The notes beneath the pieces were generated by a model. The model saw nothing but the letters and a program-made list of their open reading frames with translations. It was not told the origin of the DNA and made no database searches. Shown one piece after another: positions 3 to 10,363 of a stretch of 64,000 bases of DNA. This DNA is from Caballeronia sp. SL2Y3 (GTDB lineage Bacteria; Pseudomonadota; Gammaproteobacteria; Burkholderiales; Burkholderiaceae): the NCBI RefSeq assembly GCF_022879575.1, contig NZ_CP084261.1, positions 558,001-622,000 of the forward strand. Reading direction: 5' to 3'. Position 1 is the stretch's first letter. Each line of letters starts with the position of its first letter. The position numbers and the translations under genes are program-made.

Positions 3-1742
3 ACGCGCGCCGATGCGTACCTGTGCGAGCTGAAGGAAGCGCAGATACGCGATGGACTGCATGTTTTCGGCGTGTCGCCGCAAGGCGCGCAGCGGCGCGA
101 TACGCTGCTTGCGCTCGGGCGTTTCCCGATCGGCGACGGTCAGGGCGCGAATGCAAGCCTGATCACCGCGCTCGCACGCGACCTGCAATTAGGCGACGAC
201 TTCGATCCGCTCGACGCCGACTGGGCCGCGTCGTGGCAAGGGCCGCGTCCGCCGGCATTGCAGGCGGTGAGTGATGCGCCATGGCGTCATCACGGCGACA
301 CGCGCGAGCGGCTGGAATGCCTCGCATTGCAGCTTATCGAGGGCAATGCAGCCGCACCCGGTCCGCATACGCAACGCGTGCTGGAACGCTTGCATGGCGA
401 TGTGCTCGCGCGGCTCGATGCATGCGGACCGCAAGAGTCGCTGCAACTGAAACGCGGTCTCGAAGGCCGCTTCGTTCCGCCGGGGCCGAGCGGTTCGCCA
501 TCGCGCGGCAGACCCGACGTGCTCCCGACGGGGCGTAACTTCTATTCGGTCGATACGCGCGCATTGCCGACGCAAGCGGCCTGGTCGCTCGGGCTCAAGT
601 CCGCGAACTTGCTCGTCGAGCGGCACGTGCAGGACCACGGCGATTACCCGCGCGCCATCGGTCTGTCGGTGTGGGGCACGGCCACCATGCGCACGGGCGG
701 CGACGACATCGCGCAAGCGTTTGCGCTCATCGGCGTGCGGCCGAAATGGGCGGCGGGCAGCCATCGCGTCACCGACTTCGAGATTCTGCCGATCTCCATC
801 TTCAACCGGCCGCGCATCGACGTCACGCTGCGCGTATCCGGCTTTTTCCGCGATGCGTTCGCGAATCTCATGCATCTGTTCGATGCAGCCGTGCAGGCCA
901 TAGCGGAACTCGAAGACGAGCCGGAAGACGTCAACCCGATTCGCGCGCGTATTCTGCGTGAGCGCGACGAGTTGATCGGACGCGGCGTCGATGCCAAAGA
1001 AGCGCGGCTGCGTGCCGGCTGGCGCGTGTTCAGCACGAAGCCGGGCGCGTACGGCGCGGGCTTGCAGGAGCTGATCGACCTGAAGCAATGGGAAACCGAC
1101 GCAGATCTGTCCGCCGCTTATCAAAGCACGGGCGGCTATGCCTATTCGCAAGCCGGCGATGGCGTCGAAGCGCGTTCGAGCTTCGGCGCGCGGCTCTCGA
1201 CGCTCGATGTGGTGCTTCAGAACCAGGATAACCGTGAGCACGACGTGCTCGATTCGAACGACTATCACCAGTTTCAGGGCGGAATGATCGCGGCGGTGCG
1301 TTACTTGTCGGGCGTGCAGCCGCAGGCGTACAACGCGGATCACAGCAACCCCGCCGCGCCACGCATGCGCACGCTGAACGAAGAGATCGCGCGTGTGGTG
1401 CGCTCGCGCGTGGTCAATCCCAAGTGGATCGACGGCGTGAAGCGGCATGGCTACAAGGGCGCGTCTGAACTCGCCGCGACGGTCGATTATCTCTTCGGTT
1501 ACGATGCCACCGCGCGCGTCGTCTCCGATCATCAATATGCGCTCGTCACGGATGCCTACGTGAACGATGCCGATACGCGTGAATTCATCGCGCGACACAA
1601 CCCGCACGCGCTCCGGTCGATCTGCGAGCGCCTGCTCGAAGCGATGCAGCGCGGGCTGTGGCAGGAACCCGGCGGCTATCGGCAGTCCGTGACGCAGCAT
1701 CTGCTCGATGTCGAGCAGCAACTCGAAGGCCGACAGACTTGA
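3..1742 (+). CDS. cobN: Cobaltochelatase large subunit CobN, 3' part (partial)
   Basis: This is the C-terminal 579 residues of the large subunit that inserts Co2+ into hydrogenobyrinic acid a,c-diamide in the aerobic B12 pathway, an ATP-dependent cytoplasmic reaction needing two AAA+/VWA partner subunits. The frame is open from base 3 and begins with the family-typical AYLCELKEAQIRDGLHVFG, so the gene starts outside the window; CobN is normally about 1250-1300 aa. Further recognisable stretches are the GTATMRTGGDDIAQAFALIG segment and YAYSQAGDGVEARSSF. An apparent start at 72 is only an internal GTG. The stop TGA overlaps the TTG that probably starts the chelatase ATPase gene, so the two are translationally coupled. 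Identification is firm; only the 5' end is missing. Confidence 0.97.
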   Translation, partial: TRADAYLCELKEAQIRDGLHVFGVSPQGAQRRDTLLALGRFPIGDGQGANASLITALARDLQLGDDFDPLDADWAASWQGPRPPALQAVSDAPWRHHGDTRERLECLALQLIEGNAAAPGPHTQRVLERLHGDVLARLDACGPQESLQLKRGLEGRFVPPGPSGSPSRGRPDVLPTGRNFYSVDTRALPTQAAWSLGLKSANLLVERHVQDHGDYPRAIGLSVWGTATMRTGGDDIAQAFALIGVRPKWAAGSHRVTDFEILPISIFNRPRIDVTLRVSGFFRDAFANLMHLFDAAVQAIAELEDEPEDVNPIRARILRERDELIGRGVDAKEARLRAGWRVFSTKPGAYGAGLQELIDLKQWETDADLSAAYQSTGGYAYSQAGDGVEARSSFGARLSTLDVVLQNQDNREHDVLDSNDYHQFQGGMIAAVRYLSGVQPQAYNADHSNPAAPRMRTLNEEIARVVRSRVVNPKWIDGVKRHGYKGASELAATVDYLFGYDATARVVSDHQYALVTDAYVNDADTREFIARHNPHALRSICERLLEAMQRGLWQEPGGYRQSVTQHLLDVEQQLEGRQT

Positions 1743-2752
1743 ACGAAACTTCATTTTTTCCCGCGTTTCCTTTCACCGCGCTCGTCGGGCAAGCGCCGTT
1801 GCAGCAGGCGTTGCTGCTCGCGGCGGTCGATCCGTCATTGGGCGGTGTGCTCGTGAGCGGACCGCGCGGCACCGCGAAATCCACGGCGGCGCGCGCGCTC
1901 GCTGAACTGTTGCCGGAAGGGAAACTCGTCACCTTGCCGCTCGGCGCGAGCGAAGAGCAACTTATCGGCACGCTCGATATTCAAAGCGCGTTGCGCGATG
2001 GCGGCGTGAAGTTCTCGCCAGGCTTGCTCGCGAAAGCGCATCGCGGTGTCCTGTATGTCGACGAAGTGAATTTGCTGCCGAATCCTCTCGTCGATCAACT
2101 GCTCGACGTGGCGGCGAGCGGCGTGAATATCATCGAGCGCGACGGCATATCGCATCGGCATGACGCGCGGTTCGTGCTGATCGGCACCATGAATCCGGAA
2201 GAGGGGGAACTGCGCCCGCAATTGCTGGATCGCTTCGGGCTTGCCGTCGAACTCGCGAACTGCTTCGACGCTAATGTGCGCCAGCGGATCGTCAAGGCAA
2301 GACTCGCATTCGATTCGGACGCCGAAGCATTTCGCGCACAGCACGCGGATAATCAGGCGGCGCTCGCCGAACGCATCGAAGCGGCGCGCGCGGCGCTCGA
2401 TGAGTTCGATTTCGATGACGTCGTGCATGCGCACGTGAGCGAGCTGTGCATTGCGGCCAACGTCGACGGCCTGCGAGCCGATCTCGTGATGCTGCGCGCG
2501 GCGCGTGCGCTCGCGGCGCTCGAAGGCGCGGAATACGTCGAAACGAAGCATGTCGATTGCGTGGCCGACGCGGTATTGCGGCATCGCCGGCGCGAGCATG
2601 AAGCGTCGTCTCGTGAATCAACGCGTGAATCATCGCGGCCGGAAGCAAGCGCCAATTCCGCGCAAGGCGGCGATTGGGGTTACATGCCGCCGGAGCCCGT
2701 CGGTATCGCTAAGGTCAAGCAGGTCAGGCCGCTCGCCGCAAAAAAAGCCTGA
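1739..2752 (+). CDS. chlD: ChlD/ChlI-like chelatase AAA+ ATPase (zero-frame product of chlD)
   Basis: This 337-aa AAA+ protein of the magnesium/cobalt chelatase I/D class is the probable ATP-hydrolysing small subunit working with CobN. Visible are the Walker A region GPRGTAKST, Walker B LYVDEVNLL, the arginine-finger region LLDRFGLAV and the sensor region TMNPEEGELRPQLLDR. The frame is open further upstream, but TTG 1739, overlapping the cobN stop, gives the family-typical N-terminus LNETSFFPAFPFTALVGQ and has a GAAGG-like site about ten bases before it; TTG use makes the start moderately uncertain. The frame ends AAKKA-TGA directly behind an A7 heptamer (2740-2746), where a -1 shift would continue into the VWA domain. 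No cobS or cobT is visible here, which fits a ChlI/ChlD-type partner for CobN. Confidence 0.9.
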   Translation: MNETSFFPAFPFTALVGQAPLQQALLLAAVDPSLGGVLVSGPRGTAKSTAARALAELLPEGKLVTLPLGASEEQLIGTLDIQSALRDGGVKFSPGLLAKAHRGVLYVDEVNLLPNPLVDQLLDVAASGVNIIERDGISHRHDARFVLIGTMNPEEGELRPQLLDRFGLAVELANCFDANVRQRIVKARLAFDSDAEAFRAQHADNQAALAERIEAARAALDEFDFDDVVHAHVSELCIAANVDGLRADLVMLRAARALAALEGAEYVETKHVDCVADAVLRHRRREHEASSRESTRESSRPEASANSAQGGDWGYMPPEPVGIAKVKQVRPLAAKKA

Positions 2753-2800
2753 GCCATCGAAGGCCCGACGCCGATGCGAACGCGCATCGTCTTCGATGGC
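2740..2800 (+). promoter_or_regulatory. -1 programmed ribosomal frameshift signal in chlD
   Basis: Seven consecutive A at 2740-2746 sit in phase as A_AAA_AAA in the ATPase frame, which allows both tRNAs to slip back one base. A six-base spacer (2747-2752) contains the zero-frame TGA. Then comes a hairpin: 2753-2762 (GCCATCGAAG) is perfectly complementary to 2791-2800 (CTTCGATGGC), and within it 2772-2778 (CGATGCG) pairs with 2783-2789 (CGCATCG) around the loop AACG. Heptamer, spacer length and stable stem match known bacterial -1 frameshift cassettes. Only a weak purine-rich element (AGGTCAGG, 2721-2728) lies upstream as a possible stimulatory Shine-Dalgarno sequence. Confidence 0.85.
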
Positions 2801-3435
2801 AGGAGGCGCGTTCGCGTGGGCGGGAACATGCGCGTGAAGGGCTCGCTACTGCATCGGTCGACTGGATGGCGACACTGCGCGCCAAACGCAATGCTCGCTT
2901 CGATGCCGGTCACTTGCGCTATCGACGTGGCCAAGGCGAAGCATCCGCGCTGCATTGCTTCGTGCTCGATTGCTCCGGCTCGATGCTCGGCGGCGAACGT
3001 CTTGCGCGCGCGAAGGGCTTGCTGATCGCGTTGTTCGACCGCGCGTATCGGGAACGTGCGGAGGTCGCGCTGGTGTGCTTCGGCGGGGGACGCGCTGAAG
3101 TGCGTCGTCAACCCGGAACGGCGCATTGGTTCAATGACCGCTGGATTGCGCCGATTGGCGGCGGAGGCGGCACGCCACTCACGCTTGGGTTAGCGACGGC
3201 ATCGACGGTGCTGGCGCGGGCCGCGCGTCGCAAGCCTTCGCAACGCCGCTGGTTGTGGCTGTTGAGCGATGGACGCACGAACGAACGGCCCGCAGCGCCC
3301 CCGCTGGCCGACCGTATCGTCGTGGTGGATTTCGAGGAAGGACGCGTGCGGGTCGGCGCGGCGCACGCGCTCGCGCTCGACTGGCGCGCGCAGCACATAC
3401 CCGCCGAATCGCTTCAATACGAGCGAGGCGTATAA
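2746..3435 (+). CDS. chlD: ChlD VWA domain reached by -1 frameshift (full product 1739-3435, 565 aa)
   Basis: This is the von Willebrand A half of a ChlD/CobT-like chelatase medium subunit. The MIDAS motif is plain (LDCSGSM), followed by AKGLLIALFDRA, a GGGGTPL loop and WLWLLSDGRTN. The frame is open without a stop from the A7 heptamer onward. It first encodes a basic linker and then EGLATASVDWMATLRAKR, which I recall as typical of the region just before the VWA domain in homologues. The only in-frame ATG (2866) lies inside that conserved stretch and has no ribosome binding site, and there is no ATG or GTG between 2752 and 2866. So the domain is most simply made as a 565-aa fusion by frameshifting (336 ATPase-frame residues plus 229). 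An independent 189-aa product from 2866 is the alternative. It ends 22 bp inside the convergent cobJ. Confidence 0.85.
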   Translation, partial: SLSHRRPDADANAHRLRWQEARSRGREHAREGLATASVDWMATLRAKRNARFDAGHLRYRRGQGEASALHCFVLDCSGSMLGGERLARAKGLLIALFDRAYRERAEVALVCFGGGRAEVRRQPGTAHWFNDRWIAPIGGGGGTPLTLGLATASTVLARAARRKPSQRRWLWLLSDGRTNERPAAPPLADRIVVVDFEEGRVRVGAAHALALDWRAQHIPAESLQYERGV

Positions 3436-5057
3436 ACCCATTCGCCGTCGCCGATCACGCGCGTCTTCGACGACCCGACGATCACCATCGTTCGCATATC
3501 GACGAGACCGCCGTGCAATTCGCCGAGCGTCACGACACGCATCGTTTCCGCTGGACGTCCCACGTCGCGGCCGAGCACGACGGGCGTCGCCGCGTCGCGA
3601 TGCTCGCGCACGATGTCGATTGCGCGATCAAACTGCCAGGGTCGCGCCTTCGATAGCGGGTTATAGAACGCCATCACGAGATCCGCTTCGCTTGCATGCC
3701 GAATGCGATGCTCGATCACGTCCCAGGGCTTGAGGTTGTCGGAGAGCGACAGCACGCAGAAGTCATGGCCGAGCGGCGCGCCCGCGCGCGCGGCCGTTGC
3801 GAGCGATGCGGATACGCCCGGCACGATAGCGAGTTTCACGGCGGCCCATCCGGCATGCGTCGCGCGTCCTTCGTCGAGCGCTTCGAGTACGGCGGCAGCC
3901 ATCGCGAAGACGCCGGGATCGCCCGACGATACGATCACGACCTTTCGCCCTTCGCTCGCGAGTTCGAACGCATGGCGTGCGCGCTGCAACTCCTCGCGGT
4001 TGTCGGTCATGTGAATGCGCTGCTCTGCGCGAAAGGGGCCGGCCATGCGCACGTACGTCTCGTAGCCGAGAACGTCCTGCGCGGAATCGAGTGCAACTCT
4101 TGCGGCAGGCGTCATCAAGTCTGCGCTGCCGGGACCGAGTCCGATGACCGTCAACGTGCCGCGCGCGCGACCGATGGACTCGACATCTATCGGCGCTTCG
4201 GCCACGCTCAGCGCGATTCCGTGCGCACGAAGCGCGTCATGGGGCGGCGGTTCGTTGCTGAAGCGAAGCGGCACGTCGAGCGCGTTGGCAGCATCGCTGA
4301 GCGCATCGAACGTCGTGCTTTCTGTCGTTGCGACCAGCGCGACCAGTGCAAGCGGCGACAGTCCGTGTTCGCGCAATGCATGCCGAACGCGATCAGCGAT
4401 CGCATCGTCCGGCGCATCGATCCACGCGGCCACGCAACGCGGATGAATCACGAGACTGCGCTCATCGTTCATCACATGCGGCGTGACGCGCACTGCAAGG
4501 CGCGCGTCTTGAGCGCGAGGCAAGTCGGCGTGATCGAGCCACGGTGCATGACCTTCTATGCGCGTCGTTTCGCCCGCGAGCAAGTCGGACACGAAGCGCT
4601 TGCCACGCTCCATATCCGCCAGCGCGTAGCCATCGGGCGGAGCAAGCAGGCACATGCCGAAGCGAAGTTCGCCGCTCGTCGTGATCGCGGGCGTGACATC
4701 GAGCGCCGCGGCGATCTCGCGCGCCAGCACATTCACGCCGCTCGTGCCGCCGAGCAGCGGCACGACGGCGCTGCCATCCTGCGCGACCGCGAGCACCGGC
4801 GGCTCCGCGCCTTTGTTCGTGAGACAAGGCGCGAGCGAGCGAATCACGATGCCTGCCGCGCACAGCGCGACGATAGGCGTGGCGGCAAGATAAAGCGCTC
4901 GCACGTGCGCGCCGAAATCGTCGTAGGCAATATCGGCATGGGTGCGATTGGCGAGACCATGCACGAGCGACCCGGGATAACGCGCCTGAATGCGGCGCGC
5001 GACAGGAAGCGCGCTTTCGCCGAGCACGACGATCGCGACTGATGACGCCGCGTTCAT
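3414..5057 (-). CDS. cobJ: CbiG-CobJ fusion, precorrin-3B C17-methyltransferase
   Basis: This 547-aa two-part enzyme has an N-terminal half (about residues 1-300) that is CbiG-like: [22 protein letters not shown] and TTSGELRFG. The C-terminal half starts near [18 protein letters not shown] and is a SAM-dependent tetrapyrrole methylase with [15 protein letters not shown] and [19 protein letters not shown]. The CobJ part methylates C17 of precorrin-3B with ring contraction; CbiG in the anaerobic route opens the lactone, and in aerobic organisms a CobE/CbiG-like protein has a less clear role. The start ATG 5057 overlaps the cobI stop as ATGA; an ATG nine bases upstream (5066) is possible. It is the last gene of the cobGHIJ arm and converges on chlD. 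The same fusion exists in Pseudomonas, as far as I recall. Confidence 0.95.
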
Positions 5058-5779
5058 GCCTGCCATTTCTTCCCCGGCACGACGAGCAGCGAGAAATAGG
5101 GCGACGCCATCGGATCCACTTCATCGAGCGGCACGATCCGTTGATTCGCCATCGTCGCGCGTTCGACATAAAGCGCGCGCTTGTCCAGCCCCAGATCGGT
5201 GAGCACGCGCCGCACCTTGTCGAAGTTGCGGCCGAGCTTCATCACGACGGCTGCATCCGATGCTTCGAGCTTGCACTTCAACTCGTCTTCCGGCAGCACG
5301 CCGGACAGCACGCAGAGACTCTGATTGCGATAAACGAGCGGCACGCCGAGCACGGACACGCCGCCCAGCATCGAACATACGCCGGGCACGACATGCGCAT
5401 CGAAACGTCCGGCGAGACGGTCGTGCAGATACATGTACGACCCGTAGAAGAAGGGATCGCCTTCGCAGATCACTGCCACATCGCGGCCCGCTTCGAGATG
5501 ATCGGCAATGGCGAGCGCGGCTTCATCGTAGAACGCGCTGATGATCGTCTCGTAGCACAGCGGCGGTTCTAGCACTTCGGTCGTCACCGGATACACGAGC
5601 GGCAGGCGTGTCTGCGCGTCGTCGAGATGCGCTTCGATGATGCCGAACGCGTTGCCCTTCTTGCCCTTCGCGACGAAATACGCGACCACCGGCGCAGACT
5701 TCAGAAGCCGCAGCGCTTTCACGGTGATGAGTTCGGGGTCGCCCGGACCGACGCCGAGACCATACAGGCGTCCGCTCAT
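5054..5779 (-). CDS. cobI: Precorrin-2 C20-methyltransferase
   Basis: CobI (241 aa) transfers a methyl group from SAM to C20 of precorrin-2, giving precorrin-3A. The tetrapyrrole methylase signature is at the N-terminus ([20 protein letters not shown]), with the SAM-contacting segment [18 protein letters not shown] and [20 protein letters not shown] further on. Length is normal for the family. The start ATG overlaps the cobH stop as TAATG (positions 5777-5781), and its own stop overlaps cobJ, so translation is coupled through the whole arm. The frame is open far upstream of 5779, but this start is fixed by the overlap and by homology at MSGRLYGLG. Expression is expected to follow the riboswitch ahead of cobG. 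Confidence 0.96.
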
Positions 5780-6405
5780 TATTCGTTCTCCGAAGCAAGT
5801 GCGTTCACTGCGGCGGCGGCCATCGCGCTGCCGCCGCGTCGTCCGTGTAATGCGACGAAGGGCACGCCGCGGCTGTCGGCTGCGAGCATCGCCTTCGATT
5901 CGGCAGCGCCGATAAAGCCGACCGGGAACCCGAGAATGAGCGCGGGCTTCGGCGCGCCGGCATCGAGCATGTCGAGCAGATGAAAGAGCGCGGTGGGCGC
6001 GTTGCCTATCGCGACGACCGCGCCTTGCAGATGCGGCCGCCATAGTTCGAGCGCAGCGGCAGAACGCGTGTTGCGCATGGCGCGGGCGCGCTCGGGCACG
6101 GACGGATCGCCGAGCGTGCAGATGATGCGGTTATCGGCCGGAAGACGCGCCTCGGTAATGCCGTGCGCGACCATGCGGGCATCGCAGAGTATCGGCGCGC
6201 CGGCTGCGAGGGCCGTGCGGCCCGCGTCGCCCGCGCCGGGAGAGAAGCGCAGATCGTCGACGATATCCACCATGCCGCACGCGTGAATCAGCCGCACGGC
6301 GAGCTTTTCGAGGTCGCGCGGAATCGCGCTCAGGTTCGCTTCGGCGCGGATCGTCGCGAAGGACTGGCGATAAATCTCGGCGCCGTCGCGGATATAGTCA
6401 AGCAT
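5779..6405 (-). CDS. cobH: Precorrin-8X methylmutase
   Basis: CobH (208 aa) moves the methyl group of precorrin-8X from C11 to C12, giving hydrogenobyrinic acid. The family N-terminus [19 protein letters not shown] and the [11 protein letters not shown] segment with the catalytic histidine are present, as are [14 protein letters not shown] and [14 protein letters not shown] chose ATG 6405 over ATG 6411 because the GGAG (in CCCGGAGCC) then sits eight rather than two bases upstream. It starts inside the end of cobG and its stop overlaps cobI. Length and motifs are ordinary, so the assignment is firm. Confidence 0.95.
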
Positions 6406-7699
6406 CGGCATGGCTCCGGGCGAGCCACGCGGCCGCCTCTTCGATGGATACGTTTGGTGCGACGAGGCGCGCGTCGACATGCAAGTCATAGCGTCCGGTC
6501 GACACCGCAATCAATGTGTTCGCGACGGGATGCGCGGCGGCGCACGAGCGTTCGCAGCCGCTTATATGCACATCGTCGTGTACAGGCAGCAGCGCGGCGA
6601 GGCGGTGAGCGTCGGCTTTGGTATCGGCGCGACTCTTCGCGCAGCCCGGCGAACCGGCGCACGCGATGAGGCGTGCAAGCGGATCGTCTGCGCGCGTGAT
6701 AAGCCCGAGCGCGTTCATGCGGTCGAGCACGTGTTCCGTATCTCGCGGCATCACGTCAGGCATGAGCACGCCTTGCCAGGGCGTCATCAAGAGCCGGCCT
6801 TGCGCGTGCGTCGAAGCAAGATCGGCGAGCGCGTCGAGCGTGGCGGCGTCGAGCCGTCCGAGTTGCGTCTGCGCGCCGACATGCCAGTTTGCGCCATTCG
6901 GCATCGGATGCGCGCCGAAGCGCAGCGCGTCGTTGACAGGCGCGCGACGCCAGGCAGTGTCGACGGGATCGAACGAAAGCATCGCGAGAAAACGCGTCAC
7001 GCCGATTCGCGCGAGCAACTCACGCATGCGATGCTCGTCGTTCGAAGCGAGCGCAACGAACGCGCGCAGCGCCGCGATCACGAAGTCCACGACATGCTCG
7101 CGCGCGATGCTGCCGAGCGCGGGCGAGTCGCTATCACGGTGCGGGATCGCACCAGCGAAGCCGAACGCGTAACGCGTGCCGTCGTCGAGCGCGGAAAGCC
7201 AGAGATCGTGCGCATGATCGAGCATCGCGAGCCGTTCGCCGCCGTCGAGTTGCAGCGCGAACTTCGGCGACAACGCGTGCAGCGCGGCATCGCCCTGCAT
7301 GGCGGTGACGATGGCGGCGGCAAGGCCGCGCGTGGCGTCGCTCGCGAGCGGACTCAGCATCACGTTGCGCAAGTCGTCGCCGCCTTCAGTGTGCGGACCG
7401 AGGCCCGCGTTCAGCGCGATATCGACGAGTTCCGCGTGGGCATCGTCACGAATGCCGCGCAGTTGCAGATTCGCGCGATTGGTCAGCTCGATGACGCCCG
7501 AGCCGCACTGTACGGCCGCCCGCGCGACGGCATGCGCCGCGTGCGCGCGGAGTTCGCCGCCTGCAAGACGGAGGCGCGCGAGCCCGCCGTCGCGCGCCTG
7601 CACGATGCGCATGAGGCCGGGACAAGCCGAGGGCCGCGGTGTCGGAAAAGAAGCGTTCAAAAGCGTGACCGGTGCGATTCTCGCTTCGGGCGATGCCAC
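6398..7699 (-). CDS. cobG: Precorrin-3B synthase (O2-dependent)
   Basis: CobG (433 aa) is the oxygen-using monooxygenase that hydroxylates precorrin-3A at C20 and forms the ring-A lactone; it marks the aerobic B12 route. It belongs to the sulfite/nitrite reductase superfamily. The [4Fe-4S]/siroheme-type cysteine set is visible near the C-terminus: CAGSPGCAKS and then SGCERSCAAAHP. An N-terminal ferredoxin-fold half-domain (LMRIVQARDGGLARLRL) precedes CGSGVIELTNRANLQLRG. The start is GTG 7699; no strong ribosome site is seen, and the next ATG (Met 30) lies inside a conserved segment. It is the first gene of the arm, about 80 nt downstream of the cobalamin riboswitch. Confidence 0.94.
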   Translation of the reverse strand: MASPEARIAPVTLLNASFPTPRPSACPGLMRIVQARDGGLARLRLAGGELRAHAAHAVARAAVQCGSGVIELTNRANLQLRGIRDDAHAELVDIALNAGLGPHTEGGDDLRNVMLSPLASDATRGLAAAIVTAMQGDAALHALSPKFALQLDGGERLAMLDHAHDLWLSALDDGTRYAFGFAGAIPHRDSDSPALGSIAREHVVDFVIAALRAFVALASNDEHRMRELLARIGVTRFLAMLSFDPVDTAWRRAPVNDALRFGAHPMPNGANWHVGAQTQLGRLDAATLDALADLASTHAQGRLLMTPWQGVLMPDVMPRDTEHVLDRMNALGLITRADDPLARLIACAGSPGCAKSRADTKADAHRLAALLPVHDDVHISGCERSCAAAHPVANTLIAVSTGRYDLHVDARLVAPNVSIEEAAAWLARSHADA

Positions 7700-9265: not shown

Positions 9266-10363
9266 ATGCGTGACGAGACACCGGAACAACCCGCGCCGCT
9301 CAGAAGCGGCTACACGACCGGAAGCTGCGCGACCGCGACGAGCCTCGCCGCCGCGCGTCTGTTGCTGACCGGGCAGGCGAGCGATCGCGCGGAGATCGTG
9401 TTGCCCAAGGGCCAGCGCGTCACGATGAAGCTCGAATTCTGCCGCGCGGTCGACGGCATGCGCGATGCGGCGGAAGCGGGCGTCATCAAGGATGCAGGCG
9501 ACGATCCAGATGTGACGCACGGCGCGCTCGTGTTTGCGCGCGTGCGTCTCTCGGCGGATACGGGCGTGCGCTTTCACGCCGGACCGGGCGTGGGCACGGT
9601 GACGCGAGCGGGCCTCGCGCTTGCCATCGGCGATCCGGCCATCAACCCCGTGCCGCGCAAGATGATGACCGAGCATCTTCTCGCGCTCGCGCCACTCGCG
9701 GACTATGCGGGCGGCTTCGATGTGACGATAGGCGTCGAGCATGGCGAAGCGCTCGCGCAAAAGACGATGAACCCGCGGCTCGGCATCGTGGGCGGCTTGT
9801 CGATACTCGGCACCACGGGCATCGTCCGGCCGTTTTCGTGTTCGGCGTATATCGCCTCGATTCATCAGGGCATCGACGTGGCGCGCGCGAACGGCGTGCG
9901 GCATATCGCGGCCTGCACCGGCAATCAGAGCGAAGACGCGATGCGCGCGCGCTACGGCTTGCCGGATATCGCGTTGATCCAAATGGGCGACTTCGCGGGC
10001 GCGGTGCTCAAGCATCTGCGTCGCGCGCCGGTCGAGAAGCTTAGTCTGTGCGGCGGCTTCGGCAAACTCAGCAAGCTCGCGGCGGGACACATGGATCTAC
10101 ATAGCCGCAGCTCCAGCATCGACTTGCCGTTGTTGGCCTGCTGGGCTGCGGAGGCGGGCGCGAGCGGGGCGCTACAGTCGGCCATCCGCGCGGCGAATAC
10201 GAGTCAGGAAGCGCTGAAGCTGGCGCGCGCCGAAGGCATCGCGCTGGGCGACCTCGTCTGCGCGCGCGCGCGCGACGTGGCGCTCGATACCGTGCCGAGC
10301 GGCGTGATCGTCGAGACGTTTGCAATCGACAGGCAAGGCGTGATCGTCGGGAGCGCCGCATGA
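9266..10363 (+). CDS. cbiD: Cobalt-precorrin-5B (C1)-methyltransferase CbiD
   Basis: CbiD (365 aa) methylates C1 and belongs to the anaerobic pathway by origin. The hallmark [18 protein letters not shown] is at residues 14-31, followed by [33 protein letters not shown] and [13 protein letters not shown]. It sits 21 bp behind cobL and its stop overlaps the cobK ATG (ATGA). No cobF is visible, and CbiD presumably replaces it in an otherwise aerobic route that includes CobG. The same combination occurs in Pseudomonas aeruginosa, from memory. No unusual feature is seen. Confidence 0.95.

Follow-up and report, generated by a model that had tools for sequence, protein, structure and literature searches.

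The window analysed here is a stretch of 64,000 nucleotides from Caballeronia sp. SL2Y3 (positions 558,001 to 622,000 of NZ_CP084261.1), and its first kilobases carry, on the forward strand, the end of cobN and a chlD gene divided between two reading frames (fs-chlD). cobN starts upstream of the window, and only its 3' part lies inside (ORF 72..1742, + strand; TIGR02257 CobN, E 3.6e-217), with a PF02514 match at G000:C2:556389-559670, G000 being the window's genome. The cobN stop codon, TGA 1740-1742, overlaps the TTG start (1739-1741) of fs-chlD, whose zero frame (1739..2752, +) ends at TGA 2750-2752 and encodes a ChlI-like AAA+ protein of 337 aa with matches to PF17863, PF01078 and PF07728. 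This AAA+ half also matches TIGR02442 (E 1.1e-116) and TIGR02030 (E 3.2e-101), in both cases below the whole-protein cut-offs. The VWA half occupies the -1 frame (2740..3435, +; TAA stop at 3433-3435) and matches VWA_2 (PF13519) and TIGR02442 (E 4.6e-27), the two halves thus lying in adjacent frames of one gene. Direct reading of the junction gives a slippery heptamer, A_AAA_AAA (2740..2746, +; codons 2741-2743 and 2744-2746), followed by a 6-nt spacer made up of GCC and the zero-frame stop TGA (2747..2752, +); beyond it, computed folding and conservation in relatives place a hairpin at 2753..2800 (+). The product of a shift here would have 336 + 229 = 565 residues. An earlier sequence-only reading had the end of the AAA+ frame, the in-phase heptamer and the 6-nt spacer right, and the coordinates bear out the lengths of 337 and 565 aa that it predicted for the products; its statement that the VWA frame opens from the same point at which the AAA+ frame ends does not hold, as the -1 frame is already open from 2713 and overlaps the AAA+ frame by 37 nt. 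The same cobalamin cluster includes CobG (precorrin-3B synthase; window 6398-7699, -) and CbiD (window 9266-10363, +), which by their usual labels combine aerobic-type with anaerobic-type enzymes. A single ORF of 550 aa on the reverse strand (window 3414-5066) joins a CobJ/CbiH methyltransferase to a CbiG-like N-terminal part.

The division between frames is shared throughout the window's family. A search of 200 genomes of this family with the VWA half gave a match in 97, of which 88 strong loci were analysed and the nine weakest were kept apart and examined separately (eight are in-frame genes, and in the remaining one, G188, the I-like and D-like parts are separate ORFs). The VWA half lies in the -1 frame in 88/88 strong loci, and the same step was found in 80/80 loci from named genomes, many of which are common to the 88-locus set. 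The heptamer stands 3 nt before the AAA+ stop in every one of the 88 (A_AAA_AAA in 86, A_AAA_AAG in two), and Walker A, Walker B and MIDAS patterns are likewise present in all of them. When the window's family was pooled with three strong loci from family f49 and 15 from family f55, both at greater distance and possibly Comamonadaceae and Pseudomonadaceae, respectively, the resulting 191 loci gave 154 distinct junctions, all with A_AAA_AAR (136 A_AAA_AAA, 18 A_AAA_AAG) and with TGA (145) or TAG (9) as the zero-frame stop. At the 30,379 other codon positions of these 88 AAA+ frames, A_AAA_AAR never occurs in phase, and A takes up only 8.3% of third codon positions. From these counts we conclude that the A_AAA_AAR slip site in fs-chlD is under selection. 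The loci L172-L225 (54 loci, with 19 weak ones left unclassified) comprise only the best 30 matches per search, and L180, L182 and L190 were scored as in-frame on the ground that their AAA+ and VWA matches fall in open frames of equal length.

The segment 3' of the slip site can be drawn as 10 bp, a 9-nt bulge, 7 bp and a 4-nt loop, with 7, 1 and 10 nt on the returning side. Folded alone, 2753-2800 reaches -26.5 kcal/mol (z -4.59; 0/200 shuffles as good), and folded with its flanks -34.4 (z -2.88; 3/200 shuffles as good). The 10-bp outer and 7-bp inner stems proposed from the sequence alone are present in the segment as read, although the minimum-energy fold pairs slightly otherwise. Across the 88 loci, the eight bases that follow the stop can be paired at 8/8 positions in 70 and at 7/8 in 18 when the position of the partner is left free, and a free-position stem search places 73 loci at or below 5% of base shuffles, the other 15 lying above this level (58% at worst). 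For a fixed 48-base register we used 91 distinct sequences, derived from 105 of the 139 distinct junctions outside f55; since these 105 were kept because at least 7/8 outer pairs form there, the 93.7% of outer-stem cells paired in register, against 24-51% when slid by one to four positions, is partly a product of selection of the rows. Changes on both sides of the outer stem, such as A-T to G-C and T-A to C-G, are seen within this set: pair 4-45 is A-T in 84 sequences, G-C in five, T-A in one and G-T in one, and pair 5-44 is T-A in 75, C-G in 14 and T-G in two. The outer stem is conserved and covarying in the window's family. The 7-bp inner stem shows no such conservation in register, only 18-69 of the 91 sequences pairing per position. 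The alignment of related chlD loci proposed with the sequence-only reading thus came out in its favour, with the A7 or A_AAA_AAR and its spacing kept in 88/88 relatives and the outer stem covarying; its description of the window as having unusually complete signals did not, since slip site, spacing and outer stem are common to the relatives and the inner stem is out of register. At the fs-chlD locus L091 (G036), the hairpin past the stop is very stable (-47.2 kcal/mol) and the VWA domain is extended.

We therefore regard a conserved programmed -1 frameshift in chlD as strongly supported by sequence comparison, and consider it very likely that the window gene is the frameshifted chlD of an aerobic-type cobaltochelatase beside cobN, from which -1 slippage would yield a short and a long protein. 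Most ribosomes would pass A_AAA_AAA without shifting and terminate 3 nt further on at the TGA, releasing the 337-aa ChlI-like AAA+ ATPase, and some, aided by the hairpin 6 nt downstream, would move back by one base on the A7, enter the VWA half and complete the 565-aa ChlD-like protein. Both products would contain the same AAA+ module, its Walker motifs intact, and could therefore come together in a single motor that powers cobalt insertion by CobN. That slippage takes place in Caballeronia, how often, and what the two products do are points that we infer.

Other routes to the two proteins appear far less probable. Sequencing errors do occur at homopolymers such as the one at the junction, yet an error or a broken gene is a negligible prospect, given that the same -1 step recurs in 88/88 strong and 80/80 named loci and in 154 distinct junctions with motif patterns intact, by which an error in the window's genome is refuted. 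The homopolymer could also cause RNA polymerase to slip on the A run, with ribosomes translating the resulting A6 or A8 messages in frame, and the higher shifting of published cassettes with longer A runs (in the accessible text of PMC3711429) speaks for such a route. We nevertheless hold it to be very improbable: 18 of the 154 distinct junctions are A_AAA_AAG, in which the run, where checked (15 named loci, L051, L072 and L159), is an A6 with no preceding A, and the held codon phase and the fixed distance of the stem fit ribosomal slippage. Slightly less probable still is separate initiation of the VWA half, by coupled re-initiation at ATG 2866 or by a weak start past the AAA+ stop. Such an ATG is present in the window, some ATG, GTG or TTG occurs in the corresponding stretch in 60 of 87 loci (one of the 88 was left out of this count), and downstream initiation was seen in some experiments of the 2013 paper, to judge from the part available (PMC3711429). 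The start in question is an ATG in only 22 of the 87 loci, however, and a Shine-Dalgarno-like match precedes a possible internal start in just one; in the window, ATG 2866 is the sole ATG, GTG or TTG between the A7 and the conserved domain in the VWA frame, and it falls at SVDWM, within the conserved SVDWMATLRAKR. It has no Shine-Dalgarno-like match, in line with the earlier remark that the VWA frame lacks a ribosome site. Separate initiation also sits poorly with the conservation of the slip site and with the invariance of K K x L at the very beginning of the -1 frame in 18 aligned sequences.

I. Antonov reportedly described in Mol Biol Evol in 2020 how a single chlD gene gives rise to two cobalt chelatase subunits through programmed frameshifting. 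The kind of gene and the author named in the sequence-only reading fit the chlD frameshift described in the available portions of PMC3711429 and PMC9227772, and the fs-chlD of the window is a gene of this already published kind. It shares with the published fs-chlD/magnesium chelatase cluster the gene, the -1 step, A_AAA_AAR and a downstream structure, as far as the accessible text of these two papers describes them. The 2013 paper lists, in the part available, 23 magnesium-chelatase fs-genes, Burkholderia among them, and reports that in E. coli reporters such genes shift at 63, 40 and 10% with 11, 9 and 7 As, the value of about 10% belonging to an A_AAA_AAA cassette assayed in E. coli (PMC3711429). 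According to the accessible part of a 2022 paper, both the small and the medium subunit come from fs-chlD (PMC9227772), and a 2016 review, in the sections available, places A_AAA_AAR under strong purifying selection and describes the sequence of the downstream structure as not strongly conserved (PMC5009743), whereas in the window's family the outer stem is conserved and covarying. Our literature search found no paper combining Caballeronia, frameshift and chelatase, and no treatment of Caballeronia chlD or of an inverted chlD frameshift. TIGR02442, a putative cobaltochelatase with AAA+ and VWA in one continuous frame, is matched at its two ends by the halves of the window gene, in which a stop and a -1 step interrupt the reading frame.

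The sequence-only reading had the two products replacing CobS and CobT. This agrees with the window's genome, where cobN is present, no match to CobT (PF06213) or CobS (TIGR01650) was obtained, and a single strong ChlI-like place was found (next best E 1.6e-7); it has cobN with neither a separate chlI nor CobS/CobT, the gene content looked for in an fs-chlD genome, and not that of the CobNST type. As a general statement it fails for some fs-chlD relatives. CobT-like genes occur in several of them (for example G030, G032 and G034), strong CobS-like genes just below the curated cut-off in G034, G190, G109 and G329, and weaker CobS-like matches of about 122 bits in G632 and G015. Two chelatase motors may coexist in G034, G190, G109 and G329. 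In G034, the CobS-like gene adjoins a CobT-like gene. A single strong ChlI-like place was found in each of the 25 frameshifted genomes examined, and in 20 of 21 genomes (8 + 13) with a D-type gene in one frame, the exception being G188 with its separate I-like ORF; among the 20, G643 belongs to family f65, where another slip site may give a short form. All 12 in-frame genomes tested, with TIGR02442-type genes, have cobN, and none has a CobS match above 27 bits. Since genomes with cobN and an in-frame gene can thus be without a separate ChlI or CobS, and those outside f65 show almost no candidate slip sites in their linkers, two separate products may not be a general need.

Families f60 and f65, presumably Halomonas- and Marinomonas-like, contain in-frame genes of this kind. 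In f65, a gammaproteobacterial family, 44 of 48 genomes have the gene, and all 44 genes were read (L221, L226-L254 and L264-L277): AAA+ and VWA share one frame in the 30 loci checked, and the other 14 have open frames of 594-628 aa. In 38 of the 44, the linker between the two modules holds a single in-phase G_GGA_AAG, found nowhere else in phase in those genes; the remaining six are without the site, and in 500 synonymous shuffles the linker heptamer appeared in a mean of 0.8 and a maximum of 5 of 44. L221 is among the genes with an in-phase GGGAAAG in the linker. A stop follows in the -1 frame after one codon in 19 of the 38 genes, three codons in six, five in two, seven in seven and 11 in four, against a background over all f65 linker positions of 17% within one codon and 71% within 11. 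In 36/38 genes a Shine-Dalgarno core precedes the heptamer by 4-16 nt, compared with 17.0 expected; the fold downstream of it is weak, with a mean z of -0.74, hardly surpassing synonymous resampling. All these counts come from one genus, so that the rows are not independent. Depending on the species, the heptamer stands ahead of the linker's WG motif or behind it, an argument for selection acting at the nucleotide level. The search for a separate ChlI covered a single genome of f65, G643, which has one strong ChlI-like place. In L221 there is, in addition, an A7 accompanied by a +1-frame TGA; it is absent from 29 f65 relatives and was set aside as chance or a remnant.

Slippage at the linker G_GGA_AAG, a heptamer that is highly shift-prone in E. 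coli according to the accessible text of PMC5009743, would be helped in f65 by the upstream Shine-Dalgarno-like site and would end within 1-11 codons, giving a short protein. f65 thus probably makes its short form by an inverted shift, and we think it likely, on the present comparison, that -1 frameshifting in chlD exists in two forms that mirror each other: the shift would lead to the long product in the window's group, whereas in f65 the zero frame would give the long product and the shift at G_GGA_AAG the short one. As far as the literature was searched, the inverted form has not been described. The layout in f65 resembles that of E. coli dnaX. In the available part of PMC5009743, dnaX has A_AAA_AAR and yields a short and a long product from one gene, as predicted for the window, but its zero frame encodes the long product and the -1 stop comes one codon later, whereas in the window the zero frame encodes the short product; the roles of the dnaX frames are reversed in some bacteria (same portion of PMC5009743).

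A scan of 19 other in-frame loci found a comparable site in one, L263, whose linker contains TTTGGGA as an in-phase X_XXY_YYZ that is followed within 15 codons by a -1 stop; f65 thus stands apart. The linker patterns were without a start in L261 and L262 and without an end in L219, L220, L222 and L224, and these six loci were judged from the complete list of heptamers with near stops. The four f60 loci (L219, L220, L222 and L224) have no X_XXY_YYZ linker slip site near a -1 stop, and neither a separate ChlI nor CobS was found in their four genomes; f60 and the other in-frame branch may do without a frameshifted short form. In a tree of the AAA+ module only (55 rows, midpoint root, L255 on a long branch), the in-frame genes of f60 and f65 stand beside the frameshifted ones of f55, inside the frameshifted group, with two label changes. 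The joint group of f60, f65 and f55 has support of 98/91, and f60 with f65 94/78. Either one gain and one loss of the frameshift or two gains would fit this arrangement.

Since the frameshift is conserved across the window's family and its signals are under selection, annotation of the VWA half of chlD as a separate gene is misleading. If f65 truly shifts inversely, the output of two proteins would have persisted through an exchange of roles between the frames; this would argue that the short product matters and would turn the matter into a testable question. Such an inverted form would escape tools designed to detect disrupted frames, since a single open frame encodes its long product.
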